Source: Methanoregula sp.
Lineage (GTDB): Archaea > Halobacteriota > Methanomicrobia > Methanomicrobiales > Methanospirillaceae
Direction of reading: 5' to 3'
Length of the DNA: 64,000 nucleotides
NCBI GenBank assembly: GCA_026625165.1
Contig: CP112999.1
Coordinates: 124,001-188,000, forward strand
Shown here: positions 58,262-64,000 of the stretch, in pieces
Layout of the letters: every line of letters starts with the position of its first letter
How positions within the stretch are numbered: position 1 is the first letter of the stretch
Made by a program: the position numbers and the translations under genes
The notes under the pieces: generated by a model
What the model was told of the DNA's origin: nothing
Seen by the model: the letters and a program-made list of their open reading frames with translations, nothing else
The model's database searches: none

Positions 58262-58305
58262 GTCTATATTAATATATGCAGAGGCTCTATCCATTCTTAA
58301 CTGCT

Positions 58306-59250
58306 ATGACTCAGGACCGGTCGCTCCAGCTGGTGACAAGCGTTATGATCACCGCTGGGTTTGAAGTGTCCGAGCGCTTCTCGCTAAGGCCGCGGAGTTT
58401 TGACCTTATTGCCCGTAAAAACGGGACAATGCTTGTCATCAAAGTTGTCTCCCACATCGACAGCGTGAGTGATGACGTGGCATTTGACCTTGAGATCATC
58501 GCCCGGCACCTTCGCGGCATCCCGATGATAGTCGGGGAGCGCGCACGTGATGCGGAGCTGGAGCGCGGTGCAGTGTATGTCCGGTATGGCATCTACGCGG
58601 TCAGCGTTGCCACGCTCTATGACTTTTTTGTCGAGAAGATCCCCCCGCTCGTTTATGCTTCGCCCGGCGGGCTGTACGTGAACATCGATGGGGAAGTGAT
58701 CCGGGAAATGCGGGAGCGGCGCGGGATGTCGCTTGGGGATCTCGGGCACCTGCTCGGTGTCTCGCGCAGGACGATCAGCAAGTACGAGAGCGGGATGGGT
58801 ACGACACTTGATGTGGCGATCAGGATCGAGGAAGTTTTCAATGCCGGGGTTGTTGAATCCATTGACCTTCTCAGGCATGAACCTAAAAAAGAGAAAGAAC
58901 CGATCGATCCAAAAGAGCACCAGGAACGGTTAACACCCATCGGTTTTCTGGAAGAGATTGGTATGAAGCTCCACACGCTGCGGGGGGCCCCGTTCCAGGC
59001 GCTGGTCACTTTTGATGAACATACGATCTTTACCAGCTACGGGACGGCGCAGAAGGTGATCAAGCGCGCTGCACTGATCGGCAACCTCTCCAAGATCGCA
59101 AAGAAGCACGCAATGTGCGTGATCACCGATTACTACAAAGAGAAAAAAATCGGGAGAACTCTTTTAATTGGTGAGGACCGTCTTCACCATCTCCGCGACG
59201 GATCCGAGCTGATCGATCTCATCGGAGACTCAGGTTCTGATAAGTTGTAG
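58306..59250 (+). CDS. Archaeal HTH regulator (COG1395 type)
   Basis: A 314-residue regulator: an N-terminal domain with nuclease-like fold (about 1-120), an HTH of the XRE type (about 130-165: GMSLGDLGHLLGVSRRTISK) and a C-terminal domain of about 130 residues. The divergent TATA-like tattaatatatg (58267-58278) serves it or tiaS. ATG 58306 is chosen; the frame is open to 58276. Its last codons (GSDKL and stop) are inside the left inverted repeat of the accessory island, so the repeat overlaps the gene end. Confidence 0.85.
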   Translation: MTQDRSLQLVTSVMITAGFEVSERFSLRPRSFDLIARKNGTMLVIKVVSHIDSVSDDVAFDLEIIARHLRGIPMIVGERARDAELERGAVYVRYGIYAVSVATLYDFFVEKIPPLVYASPGGLYVNIDGEVIREMRERRGMSLGDLGHLLGVSRRTISKYESGMGTTLDVAIRIEEVFNAGVVESIDLLRHEPKKEKEPIDPKEHQERLTPIGFLEEIGMKLHTLRGAPFQALVTFDEHTIFTSYGTAQKVIKRAALIGNLSKIAKKHAMCVITDYYKEKKIGRTLLIGEDRLHHLRDGSELIDLIGDSGSDKL

Positions 59251-59331
59251 GTTGATCAACCGATCTGTCGGTTGGTGATAACTCGCGGTTGGTAGTGGCG
59301 CATATATACTTTAAACATTGAAAAACATCTG
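59226..59331. repeat. Left inverted repeat of the accessory island
   Basis: About 106 bases that reappear, inverted, at 63627-63733. Positions 59233-59257 match 63702-63726 (inverted) without a difference over 25 bases; a 17-base stretch then differs, and a 45-base segment (59275-59319) aligns gap-free with many identities (GTGATAA, GGTTG, ACATT). Both copies end at the start codon of an inward-facing gene. The left copy includes the last six codons of the regulator and the TATA-like atatatac at 59302-59309, the likely promoter of the restriction gene. Confidence 0.85.
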
Positions 59332-60264
59332 ATGGCCCAGAAAGTAGATACAAGACAGCCCTACCCGCGTGATAGTGGCAGTCTGTTATCTTCATCTACA
59401 ATGTACCCAAAACCCACCCCCTTACCAATCGAATCTTTACACACGGCAATAAAATCTGCATTTGAGAGAGCATTAAAAACAAAAAAGGGAAAGCAGAAAA
59501 AAATCCCAGACACTCCAGATAAACTCGTTTCATTGTGTTTAAAACATCTGAAAGAGCGAACCGATCCGATAATCGGAACCGATTTTTATACTCACTTAAG
59601 GGCGGAAGAAATCTTCGATATGGATGCAATCTCTCACGAAATGCAGAGACAACGGATGCAGATTGGCGTTTTTTATCAGTTCTTAATAATTGCTTTAATG
59701 GAAGCATCCCGTCAAAACGGGAATATCCATATTATTCGTGCTTCTGATGGCACAAGAGAAGGGGATGTACTTGCGGATCTAAAACCACCCGGTTGTGAAG
59801 TCGGACTACGGTTGTACATGTCCGTAAAAAAATCGGCGGATACCGTTGGTGGGCAGGATGTTGAGGGAGTGGTAAAGAGGTTGGAGAGAGTTGCAAAACA
59901 AGAGAAGAATCTAACCTCTCCATATCTCTGTGTTATTGCTATTGCAACACCGCAGAATGGAAGAATACAAAGTTATGATAACAGTCGAAGCGTCAAATAC
60001 AATCAAGATGGGTATCCATATTCTGAAAATTGTGAAGTTTGGACACCGGGATTCATTTATCCATTTATCTCTGGAAGGAGTGCGATCGAGATATATTCAG
60101 AATCGATGAAATTCATCGATGCAAATATGCCATTTAATTCTCTGAAGTATCGTGAAGAATGCAACCGACTTCTAAAAAATAAGTTAATAGAGATGGGAAT
60201 TTCAAATTCTGAAGGAATGGTCGTTAAGGAAAAATTATTCGAATATGTCGCCCACGAAGATTAG
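59332..60264 (+). CDS. Putative type II restriction endonuclease
   Basis: A 310-residue soluble protein with no close family I recognise. It is convergent to, and overlaps by 4 bases, a DNA methyltransferase gene, the classic layout of a type II restriction-modification pair. A PD-(D/E)xK-like core may lie at REGDVLADL (Asp about 143-148) and RLYMSVKKS (Lys about 166), with strands predicted around. The start codon at 59332 sits directly after the inverted repeat and its TATA-like box at 59302, so the message would be nearly leaderless; a later ATG at 59401 is possible. Codon use is AT-rich. The target site is unknown. Confidence 0.6.
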   Translation: MAQKVDTRQPYPRDSGSLLSSSTMYPKPTPLPIESLHTAIKSAFERALKTKKGKQKKIPDTPDKLVSLCLKHLKERTDPIIGTDFYTHLRAEEIFDMDAISHEMQRQRMQIGVFYQFLIIALMEASRQNGNIHIIRASDGTREGDVLADLKPPGCEVGLRLYMSVKKSADTVGGQDVEGVVKRLERVAKQEKNLTSPYLCVIAIATPQNGRIQSYDNSRSVKYNQDGYPYSENCEVWTPGFIYPFISGRSAIEIYSESMKFIDANMPFNSLKYREECNRLLKNKLIEMGISNSEGMVVKEKLFEYVAHED

Positions 60265-61163
60265 AATCCCTCTTTAATCATCCGTGTTCCATTAAGATTT
60301 GCCTCTTTTGATATTCGGTCATACGCCGCTTTGCAATATTCTTCATTGTTATCAATAATGATTGAATTTCTATGGAGGTTGATCGCCGCTATCCCAGTTG
60401 TTCCAGATCCCCCGAAAGGATCAATTACAAGGCCGTTATCTGGAGTCAATAACCGAATAAAGAATGCAGGTAATCCGGTCGGGAATACAGCCGGATGTCC
60501 ATAATTTTTTCCAACTAATGGCAGGTCTATAACATTAGAGGGGAGCACTTTTGTTTTACCAACCCAGTTTCTCAAATCTCTCCCAAAACCGCTTTTGTTC
60601 TCGGAGTCGTGCCGTTGAGCACTCTTTCCTTTCAAATTTGCGAGCCGTACTTCAGTCCATCCACCGATAGGTACTTTCACGGCTTCCTGATCCTCGTATG
60701 GCTTTTTGTCCTTAGCGAGATGGAAACAGTATTCCCAACCATCTCGTAATCTGGTTGGCCAATACCCCGGCATTGGATTTGTCTTATACCAAATGTAATC
60801 GTCAATTGCGTACCAATTTCTTTTTTGGAATCCGATCACGGTTTCCCAGACGTAGCGATGTCTTTGACCGGCTACAATTCTGTCCTTAATATTCAGGACG
60901 AAACTACCCTTTGGATTCAGTATGTTAAAGAACGGATCTGAAAAAGTAAACATCCATTCGGCGAACTCATCGGGATGCATACTATCATAATGTTTTTTTC
61001 TGGCATCCGCATACGGTGGGGAAGTAATGATGAGATCGGCGGATTCATTGATTTTTGGGAGCTCTTCTCTACTATCTCCGCAGATTATTTTACAATAGAT
61101 ATTCCCCGATAAAGCCTCTTGTATAGCACCGGAACTTTTTATTTTTGCTCTTCTCGTTTTCAT
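60261..61163 (-). CDS. DNA methyltransferase (N4-cytosine/N6-adenine, beta class)
   Basis: A 300-residue methyltransferase. The catalytic motif IV TSPPYADARKKHYDSM (about 48-63) precedes the SAM-binding motif I DPFGGSGTTGIAAI (about 242-255), the beta-class order. TSPPY is most often linked to N4-methylcytosine, though adenine is possible. The middle region (about 130-215) is the likely target recognition domain. The start ATG at 61163 is 12 bases after the AbrB-like gene's stop, so the two are probably one transcript. The target sequence cannot be read from this. Confidence 0.88.
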   Translation of the reverse strand: MKTRRAKIKSSGAIQEALSGNIYCKIICGDSREELPKINESADLIITSPPYADARKKHYDSMHPDEFAEWMFTFSDPFFNILNPKGSFVLNIKDRIVAGQRHRYVWETVIGFQKRNWYAIDDYIWYKTNPMPGYWPTRLRDGWEYCFHLAKDKKPYEDQEAVKVPIGGWTEVRLANLKGKSAQRHDSENKSGFGRDLRNWVGKTKVLPSNVIDLPLVGKNYGHPAVFPTGLPAFFIRLLTPDNGLVIDPFGGSGTTGIAAINLHRNSIIIDNNEEYCKAAYDRISKEANLNGTRMIKEGF

Positions 61164-61175
61164 ATAAAATCCCGG

Positions 61176-61322
61176 TTACTGTTTATTTTGTCGCTCAATT
61201 TTCTCAATCGTGATCTTGACGTAATCCCCTTCTTGGATGCTCTCAATTTCCCGTACTTCTTGGGGTATCGTAATCCGTCCACCTTGAATTACTTTAAGCG
61301 TAGCAGAATGTAGTTGTGCCAT
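61176..61322 (-). CDS. AbrB/SpoVT-type DNA-binding protein, 48 residues
   Basis: A 48-residue swapped-hairpin DNA-binding protein: MAQLHSATLKVIQGGRITIP, then QEVREIESIQEGDYVKITIE. The GRITIP--VRE motif followed by a GDYVKI strand is the AbrB/MazE signature. It is immediately upstream of the methyltransferase gene (12 bases), where a controller of restriction-modification expression would be expected. AbrB-type proteins as R-M controllers are not the common HTH C-protein type, so the role is inferred. An antitoxin role is the alternative, but no toxin partner is next to it. Confidence 0.82.
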   Translation of the reverse strand: MAQLHSATLKVIQGGRITIPQEVREIESIQEGDYVKITIEKIERQNKQ

Positions 61323-61390
61323 ACAAATCTAAAGTAAGAATACACTTTTAACACATTTAATACTTTCTAAATCAATCGGCATCAAAAGGT

Positions 61391-61434
61391 TTATAATGTA
61401 GTCTAACGTATTATAATGTATAATAACTACATTA
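61391..61434. promoter_or_regulatory. Dyad and direct repeats between AbrB-like gene and transposase
   Basis: The inverted pair TAATGTAGT (61394-61402) and ACTACATTA (61426-61434) is perfect over 9 bases, and TTATAATGTA occurs twice (61391-61400, 61411-61420). This sits between divergent genes. It may be an AbrB operator controlling the R-M transcript or the transposase, or part of the IS left end. Confidence 0.45.
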
Positions 61435-61447
61435 AGATACATAAGAA

Positions 61448-62647
61448 GTGAGTGAAATGATTCGCCAACTCAACAACCCAAGAGAATTAAGAGGACTGGC
61501 AATCCTCAGCCAGCCCGATACCGTCATCCAGACGGATAAGAACCAATGGAATGTCCGATCACAGTCAAAGGACTCGTACTATCAGGTTACCCGGTCATTC
61601 CAAGATCGAAAAGCCCAGATGAACAACCGAGCAACATGGACTTGCTCTTGCCCGGATTATCAAACCCGTCAATTACCCTGCAAGCATATCCACGCCGTTC
61701 AATTCTCCCTGAAACTTGCCGGTGAGATAGAACAGGAAAGCGCAGTTCAACACATCGCAGAAACAGAACAGAAGATCACCTGTCCTTTCTGCAAGAGTGC
61801 GAACATCGCAAAGTGGGGGAACCGAAAAACACAATTCGGATCAGTCCAGCGGTTTGCCTGTCATGACTGCAACCATAAGTTTGTTATCGATAAGGGATTC
61901 TGCCGGATGAAGAACAGCCCCAAGACGATTACCCTCACTCTTGATCTCTATTTCAAGGGAGTGTCACAGAGAAAGATTGCCGATCACCTGAAGCAGTTTG
62001 AAAGTGTCGAAGTAACACAGCCAACGATCCTGAACTGGATTCACAAGTATCTGAAACTACTCTCGAAGTATGCAGAGAAATACAAGGCCGATGTCGGCAA
62101 CATCTGGCACTCCGATGAGACAACCGTGTTCATCAAGAAAGACGGTCAGAAGAAGTGTTATGAGTGGATATGGAATATCATGGACGCTAAGACCCGGTAT
62201 CTCCTCGCGTGTCAGGTTACGGAAACCCGGTTCAAAGAGGATGCGCGTAAGCCACTCCGGAAGGCAAAGGAAACCGCAAACAAAGCACCGGACGCGATTG
62301 TAACCGATGGACTGCACGCGTACCGGGATGCGATTAAAGCAGAGTTCTAAGGTCTTAATGATCGTATTCTAAATCCACACGTCCGGTTAAAAGACTTTGA
62401 AACAAAACCGAATAACAACATCCTTGAGCGGTTAAACGGGACGTTCCGCGAGAGAACGAAAGTTATGCGATCCTTTGACAGCTCCGTTAGCGCGCAGGAG
62501 TTTGTCGCAGGGATGCAGACGTACTATAATTACATCAGACCTCATCAGGGAATCGGAGGATTAACCCCGGCGCAAATGGCTAACATTCCGATCAATCTGA
62601 TGGGGAACAGATGGGAAACAATGATCGGGTTGGCAAGCGAGAAATAA
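61448..62647 (+). pseudogene. DDE transposase with N-terminal SWIM finger, interrupted by TAA
   Basis: An IS-type transposase of 399 codons. The N-terminal SWIM zinc finger (CSCPDYQTRQLPCKHIH, about 61-77) and a zinc ribbon with CPFC/CHDC pairs precede the DDE core: Asp in HSDETTVFI (about 219-227) and VTDGLHAY (about 285-292). An in-frame TAA at 62348-62350 (codon 301) separates the catalytic Glu (NNILERLNG) and the C-terminus (62351-62647). The reading frame after the stop is intact, so a single nonsense mutation explains the break. GTG 61448 or ATG 61457 is the start. The right end abuts the next gene with no space for a terminal repeat. Confidence 0.85.
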
Positions 62648-63307
62648 CTAAGGAAAATAGTCAATCTTATTTTCAGGTTCGTACTTTTTTAAGTGGTATT
62701 CACTGTATTCAGTAATTGAAAAAAGACCGACTATAAATGCCACAATAAAAATAAGGATTGCAACTGGATCAATATCAACTGTGAATCCTTTGTTTAGGAT
62801 AGCCATGTACCCAAATCCTAAAAGCGCCACTATCATCTGAGCTGCAATCAGTGAGAAAAGAAATGATAAAAATCGCTCTCTATGCTGCTCAATAATCATC
62901 TCTCGCTTCTCAAATGGGAAATATTGAGTTATCGGAGTTTTATCTTTTGTTGGATTACCATAAATCCTGATGATAAGGAGTGTTATCATTGTTGATGAAA
63001 CGGCTAATAATGAGGTTAATATTGTGATTTGGATGTTTAAAGTTAAAAGAACCACAAGATAAGAACCGATCAAAGGAATAGAGATGCAAAAATAACTTGC
63101 CCTAACTTTTTCTTTTTTTGATGCTATATCCTCATTTGAAAGTTTATGATACAGTCCAAGTAGAGAAATGTGCTTAGACAAAAAGGGCAGAACATAGAAT
63201 AAAAGGAGCCCGAAAAAAACAACGATTAAAATTAAGGTTATCCAAGGAGGGATTATGGTTTCCTTAGGAATGGATATATTATCGATTACCTGCGATGGAT
63301 TATCCAT
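62648..63307 (-). CDS. Multi-pass membrane protein, unknown
   Basis: A 219-residue protein with about five or six hydrophobic helices (about 19-42, 76-93, 93-115, 147-166, 178-200). Its middle cytoplasmic loop PFEKREMIIEQHRERFLSFL is charged. The C-terminus overlaps nothing, but its stop codon abuts the transposase stop, so a 3' truncation by the insertion cannot be excluded. No family is recognised. It is transcribed from the right-hand repeat inward, with the small membrane gene upstream (19 bases). Confidence 0.65.
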   Translation of the reverse strand: MDNPSQVIDNISIPKETIIPPWITLILIVVFFGLLLFYVLPFLSKHISLLGLYHKLSNEDIASKKEKVRASYFCISIPLIGSYLVVLLTLNIQITILTSLLAVSSTMITLLIIRIYGNPTKDKTPITQYFPFEKREMIIEQHRERFLSFLFSLIAAQMIVALLGFGYMAILNKGFTVDIDPVAILIFIVAFIVGLFSITEYSEYHLKKYEPENKIDYFP

Positions 63308-63326
63308 TGAACTCTCTGGATAAGAT

Positions 63327-63626
63327 TTATTCTTTTAGGAGTTGTTGCTGAGATTTAAGCTGTTCAGATTTCCGCCTGTCTAAACGGATCATAATCAATA
63401 CGAACAAGTTCATTAAAAATATTCCAAGTAAGACGTACTGAAGTAGGATGAATACAATACTTGCTCCACCAACAACAAATGGCAGACCGTTTAGTAATAC
63501 TTGAATTAAATTACCCCATGACACGGATAACCACTCCTTTTTTTGGTGATGTTTTCCTGCGCTGCCCGCATTGCAATAAATTTTACTATAATCTAAAAAA
63601 CAAATCATACTCTCGCGCGTCATCAT
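63327..63626 (-). CDS. Small membrane protein of the island
   Basis: A 99-residue protein, MMTRESMICFLDYSKIYCNA at the N-terminus, two or three hydrophobic segments (about 37-52, 52-80), and a basic tail RRKSEQLKSQQQLL. The ATG at 63626 is preferred over an upstream GTG (63674) because the equivalent place in the left repeat carries the restriction gene's start. It is followed by the larger membrane protein, so the two may form one transcript. Function unknown; could be linked to defence or toxicity (speculative). Confidence 0.6.
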   Translation of the reverse strand: MMTRESMICFLDYSKIYCNAGSAGKHHQKKEWLSVSWGNLIQVLLNGLPFVVGGASIVFILLQYVLLGIFLMNLFVLIMIRLDRRKSEQLKSQQQLLKE

Positions 63627-63733
63627 ATAAATATTCTGTAATGTTTTAAGATCAATCGGCGCATTATCAACCACGACTTATCACACGCGTTGAAATTTAT
63701 CGATCAACCTACAACTTATCAGAACCGAGACTC
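63627..63733. repeat. Right inverted repeat of the accessory island
   Basis: The inverted counterpart of 59226-59331. Its 63702-63726 segment is identical over 25 bases to the inverse of 59233-59257. The homologous stretch continues gap-free to near the start codon of the small membrane gene at 63626. It therefore holds a reversed copy of the end of the regulator gene (stop included) and the promoter-like part. It adjoins the thermosome promoter on the other side. Confidence 0.85.
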
Positions 63734-63735
63734 AT

Positions 63736-63752
63736 AATATTTATATAGAACC
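63736..63752 (+). promoter_or_regulatory. TATA box of the thermosome gene
   Basis: The tttatata (63740-63747) lies about 40 bases upstream of the ATG at 63787, a good archaeal TATA box position with a 15-20 base leader that carries GTGGTGAT before the start. It begins only a few bases after the right inverted repeat ends, so the island insertion left the promoter intact. Confidence 0.6.
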
Positions 63753-63786: not shown

Positions 63787-64000
63787 ATGTCACAACAGCT
63801 TGGAGGCCAACCTATTCTTATCTTAAAAGAGGGCAGTTCACGCACGCGTGGACGCGATGCACAGGGCATGAACATTACTGCTGCTAAGGCAGTAGCGAGT
63901 GCCGTGCGCACGACCCTTGGTCCGAAAGGAATGGACAAAATGCTTGTCGATACCATCGGCGATGTCGTTATCACAAACGACGGCGTCACAATTTTAAAAG
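63787..64000 (+). CDS. Thermosome subunit (group II chaperonin), 3' part outside window
   Basis: The first 71 codons of a thermosome subunit: [20 protein letters not shown] (about 19-38), the [18 protein letters not shown]-binding motif (about 42-56), and [13 protein letters not shown] (about 59-71). These are hallmark CCT/thermosome sequences. The rest lies beyond 64000. Confidence 0.95.

Follow-up and report, generated by a model that had tools for sequence, protein, structure and literature searches.

The AT-rich island in front of the thermosome gene of the window, by which we mean the whole 64,000-bp stretch analysed here (G000:C1:124001-188000, from the 2.17-Mb genome of a Methanoregula-type methanogen), is, judged by its ends and by the empty site in a relative, a 4,494-bp transposon insertion (59233-63726). 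Our overall explanation, to which we assign a probability of about 0.8, is that an IS6-related, cargo-carrying transposon has inserted in front of the thermosome gene, 5 bp before its TATA box, and that the family to which it belongs lands at this same position relative to TATA boxes, mostly those of heat-shock genes. The boundaries of the element, its target-site duplication (TSD), the empty site, the membership of a family, the spacing of 5 bp between TSD and TATA box and the identities of the target genes can all be read from the DNA sequence. Members of this family seem to seek out promoters and to leave the genes themselves whole.

Ends and target duplication of the island

A first-pass annotation had described an AT-rich accessory island bounded by matching inverted repeats. 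The repeats are real, with positions 59233-59257 and 63702-63726 forming a perfect inverted pair of 25 bp, for which we estimate a chance expectation of ~1e-8 in the island span, and the base composition is as described, with a GC content of 36-48% in this span against 50-56% outside. Homology between the repeat arms runs on inward at ~74% over 95 bp. Inward of its outer 25 bp, each arm has a second conserved block, GTGATAA(C/G)TCG(C/T)GGTTG, located at 59275-59291 in the left arm (GTGATAACTCGCGGTTG) and at 63668-63684 in the right arm.

The nature of the island is settled by a feature absent from the first-pass annotation, a direct 8-bp repeat of GAGACTCA that lies immediately outside both arms in the same orientation (59225-59232 and 63727-63734). 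Because this TSD flanks the arms and the corresponding site in L004 is empty, the arms are assigned as the terminal inverted repeats (TIRs) of an inserted element, at 59233-59328 on the plus strand and 63631-63726 on the minus strand. In L004, a Methanoregula whose regulator is 96% identical, GAGACTCA is present as a single copy and the regulator ends with GGAGACTCATAA, directly followed by the thermosome promoter; the site is likewise empty in L005, L006, L007, L010 and others. The comparison with relatives lacking the island, which the annotation had proposed as a check, thus supports its view of an inserted accessory island with matching ends. Its suggestion of an ancient duplication during insertion came close, but the duplicated part is the 8-bp target, while the repeats belong to the element.

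Both flanking genes are affected little. The regulator upstream (58300-59250, plus strand; NCBIfam NF003162, PRK04140) has an altered C-terminus, with ...GDS* changed to ...GDSGSDKL*, its last five codons and its new stop codon being supplied by the left TIR. In this respect the repeat does include the end of the regulator gene, as had been noted, but the repeats start at the element ends, GGTTCTG, and not inside the regulator. On the other side, the thermosome (Cpn60/TCP1) gene starts at 63787 (63787-63999, plus strand) behind an intact promoter, in which a BRE-like 5-bp spacer, TAATA (63735-63739, plus strand), separates the right TSD from the TATA box TTTATATA (63740-63747, plus strand), the putative targeting landmark.

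Gene content and related elements

The transposase gene (61448-62647, plus strand) encodes an N-terminal SWIM finger, a zinc ribbon and a DDE domain, and is interrupted by an in-frame TAA (62348-62350) where homologues have Y or F. The window copy may therefore be immobile, its transposase being nonsense-mutated. A second, intact homologue, 67-70% identical, is present in the same genome at G000:C1:1319904-1321085 (L021), in an element with a different TIR subtype. Divergent from the transposase gene lies that of a 48-aa AbrB/MazE-like DNA-binding protein (61176-61322, minus strand), which would control the transposase. The cargo comprises an N6/N4 DNA methylase (60261-61163, minus strand; PF01555, 2.8e-39; a type II MTase according to PADLOC), a 310-aa protein (59332-60264, plus strand) with no Pfam, NCBIfam or PADLOC match, which is a putative restriction endonuclease by its pairing with the methylase, a 219-aa membrane protein without a family match (62648-63307, minus strand) and a small membrane protein with an uncertain start (63327-63674, minus strand). 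Apart from the DDE transposase no recombinase was found in the island. A casposon was ruled out, as no ORF inside the TIRs matched the Cas1 integrase, and a Tn7-like transposon was ruled out by the lack of TnsA/B/C (TnsABCD-like) genes, the IS6/IS1-like DDE transposase being the only one present.

Among 108 genomes of the family, 8 contain a homologous transposase, and across the phylum such transposases are sporadic. When viral contigs were scanned with the transposase alignment, only two matches came up, both remote and partial. By searching outward from each transposase for TIRs and an 8-bp TSD, related elements of 2.6-8.8 kb with 8-bp duplications were located both in Methanoregulaceae and in other families belonging to this phylum. 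Besides the window element, 13 further two-ended elements have a perfect 8-bp TSD, among them L042/L015 (8.0 kb), L044 (3.2 kb), L021 (6.0 kb), L045 (4.8 kb), L046 (5.9 kb), L047 (3.0 kb), L081 (8.8 kb), L082 (3.8 kb), L083 (2.8 kb), L087 (3.8 kb), L088 (4.8 kb) and L097 (3.2 kb). L048 and L090 lack a TSD, and the DDE genes of L089, L091, L092, L093 and L096, around which no clear TIR/TSD pair was found, were excluded from the TATA-offset statistics. The TIRs begin with GGTTCTG in the window and most relatives, with GGTGCTG, GGCACTG and GATTCTG as variants.

Most related elements that are open to annotation carry restriction-modification cargo, including Bpu10I-like, MvaI/BcnI and weakly EcoRII-C-like endonucleases, type IIG enzymes, and methylases accompanied by a specificity subunit. 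The cargo also features a dGTPase and an HNH protein. In most elements a small gene is divergent from the transposase, encoding an AbrB-like, ribbon-helix-helix, zinc-ribbon or DUF2080 ('putative transposon-encoded') protein. The transposase is missing from two elements at the thermosome site, L009 and L011, although their ends are the same, an indication that such cargo-only copies were moved in trans.

The transposase is closest to IS6 (and IS1) models, with NF033587 as the best NCBIfam match. The scores of six homologues free of internal stops, 107-123 bits, fall short of the curated IS6 cut-off of 125, and we therefore file the family as IS6-related rather than as a member. In the accessible part of a 2021 review (PMC7986276), IS6 elements are described as 700-890 bp long, with short inverted repeats and 8-bp repeats, and one member with a passenger gene. 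The elements found here share with IS6 (IS26) a related DDE transposase, 8-bp duplications, arrays of neighbouring copies and ends of the GG..CTG type, here GGTTCTG. They differ in the extra N-terminal SWIM module, in two-block ends of ~100 bp, in a fixed position relative to TATA boxes and in their size, with several cargo genes in 2.6-8.8 kb compared with single-gene elements of ~700-890 bp. That part of the review (PMC7986276) describes no promoter targeting for the IS6 family.

Some further structures were seen along the way. In tandem arrays, extra ends abut the shared TSD in L046 (reverse strand, 4273 and 5397) and at the right ends of L044 and L021; the tandem copies have the same 8-bp duplication between them, as though each newcomer had gone in at the identical base, beside a copy already there. 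L012 (2700-3633) holds another thermosome-site insertion at a contig end, with an ORF that is by eye of the AlbA/Schlafen type. Mini-elements, made up of only two inverted outer TIR blocks, are constant in size, at 79 bp (GGTTCTGATAAGT type) or 89-93 bp (GGTTCTGTTGCGTT type), and occur several per genome, for instance at G000:C1:1269869-1269947 (L134, 9870-9948) and also in L121, L127, L129, L137, L143 and L161. Those inspected showed no target duplication and no clear link to a TATA box.

Position of the insertions and their target genes

In the window, exactly 5 bp lie between the duplication and the thermosome TATA box downstream of it. To evaluate this spacing across the family, every offset outward from the TSD was scored for a match to TTTATATA of at least 6/8 or at least 7/8, with offsets 25-180 as background. 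A match of at least 6/8, reading outward, was found exactly 5 bp beyond the TSD in 14 of the 15 two-ended elements, compared with 1.2% in the background (P ~1e-26), and one of at least 7/8 in 10 of 15, compared with 0.04% (P ~6e-31), where several of the 15 sites are orthologous promoters (thermosome four times, cdc48 twice, one hsp20 locus twice), so that the independent promoters number ~10 and not 15. L044 has a weak match of 5/8. Offsets 3 and 7 reach 8/15 each, owing to the two-base periodicity of TATATA, and no comparable peak is observed elsewhere. The 5-bp spacer has the consensus NAANN, with A at +3 in 15/15 and A at +2 in 12/15 sites; in both sequence and length this gap matches what would be expected of a BRE, the TFB recognition element.

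The rule is not confined to this set. A blind set of ends, collected by TIR pattern alone, gives the same peak at offset 5 (8/37, P 5e-9), where only one end per element should face a promoter, and the one-ended L084, L090 and L095 (another family) also follow it. The 79-93-bp mini-elements show 2/25 at this offset (P 0.01), with no peak comparable to that of the ends of the larger elements. In the window the TSD overlaps the stop codon of the regulator and in L042 it lies 3 bp past the stop, while both are 5 bp from the TATA box; hence, the landmark is the TATA box rather than the upstream gene.

Heat-shock genes, namely thermosome, Cdc48 or its operon, and Hsp20, make up 10 of the 15 targets. 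By Pfam, three targets are HSP20 (L044, L081 and L045), three are Cdc48, comprising L021, L047 and, via an arsR-like regulator that forms an operon with cdc48, L087, and four are thermosome. The thermosome promoter is occupied in four different Methanoregula (window, L009, L042 and L011), and TIR kinds and cargo differ between them. The remaining targets are a zinc-ribbon gene (L046), an RNA polymerase Rpb5-type gene (L082) and a MarR-like gene (L088), and L083 and L097 are further sites with the same TSD-5 bp-TATA geometry. At the L082 site a tRNA was suspected downstream, with an intron by eye, but ARAGORN did not call it, and only the next gene, of the Rpb5 type, is confirmed. In all copies the flanking genes are intact or nearly so.

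On the promoter side of L087, right of 11686 and upstream of the arsR-like regulator and Cdc48, we also noticed the palindrome CTAACTATAAGTTAG, which matches the HSR1 heat-shock site, the CTAAC-N5-GTTAG palindrome (PMC9133787). Degenerate HSR1-like palindromes were seen by eye at the L021, L047, L081, L045 and L044 sites.

Proposed recognition of the promoter and its implications

We lean towards a model in which TBP on the TATA box and TFB on the BRE steer the transposase, a link to which the geometry points. The 8 bp spanned by strand transfer would then lie immediately upstream of bound TFB, and the core promoter would keep working. Strong or stress-induced promoters would be struck most, and the preference for heat-shock promoters (10/15) may stem from their strength or from an open state under stress. 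On balance, archaeal DNA transposons with anti-phage (restriction-modification) cargo would thus probably use the TBP/TFB promoter complex as a landing beacon and insert precisely upstream of BRE/TATA, preferably at heat-shock promoters, as a convergent prokaryotic counterpart of Ty3 targeting. Transposase copies would also mobilise the cargo-only elements in trans.

A conceivable but less probable alternative is that the transposase itself reads BRE/TATA-like DNA (NAANN-TTTATATA) with no host transcription factor involved. The geometry fits this equally well, the motif, with its A at +3 in 15/15 sites and the TATA 8-mer, is informative enough, and the N-terminus of the transposase contains SWIM and zinc-ribbon modules that are absent from the short IS6 transposases. 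A crude motif scan of the window gave 18 matches, of which ~11 lie in ORFs without a downstream gene start, spurious ORFs misclassifying some of them, yet the insertions are found at promoters, mostly strong heat-shock ones. This tips the balance slightly towards promoter state and away from sequence alone, although selection against gene disruption could yield the same promoter bias.

The other alternatives fare much worse. It is very unlikely that the DDE gene belongs to an insertion sequence that hopped into an unrelated island, with ends belonging to another recombinase. The broken transposase of the window and the presence of the same ends in L009 and L011 without a transposase would agree with this, but at ~12 other loci, with different cargo, TIR/TSD elements enclose a homologous transposase together with a divergent small regulator, and no separate IS ends were found immediately around the transposase gene. 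Random insertion with survival of only those copies just upstream of core promoters, though in line with the intact flanking genes, is highly improbable, as selection after insertion would tolerate copies scattered across the intergenic region and cannot produce a single-base offset, here exactly 5 bp in 14/15. Equally improbable is the invertible phase switch of the first-pass annotation, in which the island would be flipped by recombination at the 25-bp repeats: the perfect repeats are long enough for homologous recombination, but they are the TIRs of an element that has a TSD on either side and whose site is empty in relatives, the island encodes no site-specific invertase, the related elements have only the TIR kind in common and no invertible arrangement, and flipping would leave the thermosome promoter untouched.

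Several known systems bear comparison with the family. The Drosophila P element prefers heat-shock gene promoters; transposase and organism are unrelated to those studied here, and we know of no fixed TATA offset for it. Tn7-like transposons use safe insertion points. They also carry defence genes, including restriction-modification, as the accessible part of one report describes (PMC8649781), but here the target is a promoter position instead of a gene end, the duplication is 8 bp and TnsABCD-like genes are lacking. The closest functional resemblance is to yeast Ty3, which is targeted through contact with TBP/Brf1 (PMC8632968), a transposase-TBP/TFB link being suggested here by the geometry. 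As with Ty3 and other Pol III-targeting retrotransposons, the offset from the promoter is precise and genes stay unbroken; Ty3, however, is an LTR retrotransposon and enters 2-3 bp upstream of where Pol III starts, whereas the present elements are DNA transposons upstream of archaeal BRE/TATA, and no homology is claimed. A search of the open-access literature found no report of promoter- or TATA-targeted transposon insertion in archaea, which, given that scope, is weak evidence of absence.

Eukaryotic retrotransposons are known to insert precisely and to spare genes by way of general transcription factors. If this also holds for archaea, which have TBP and TFB in common with eukaryotes, such insertion would have evolved separately in DNA transposons and would offer a simple purified system for studying promoter-guided insertion. 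It would point to a natural means of delivering DNA to sites upstream of archaeal promoters with the genes undamaged, and it would explain why defence genes adjoin chaperone genes in methanogens.
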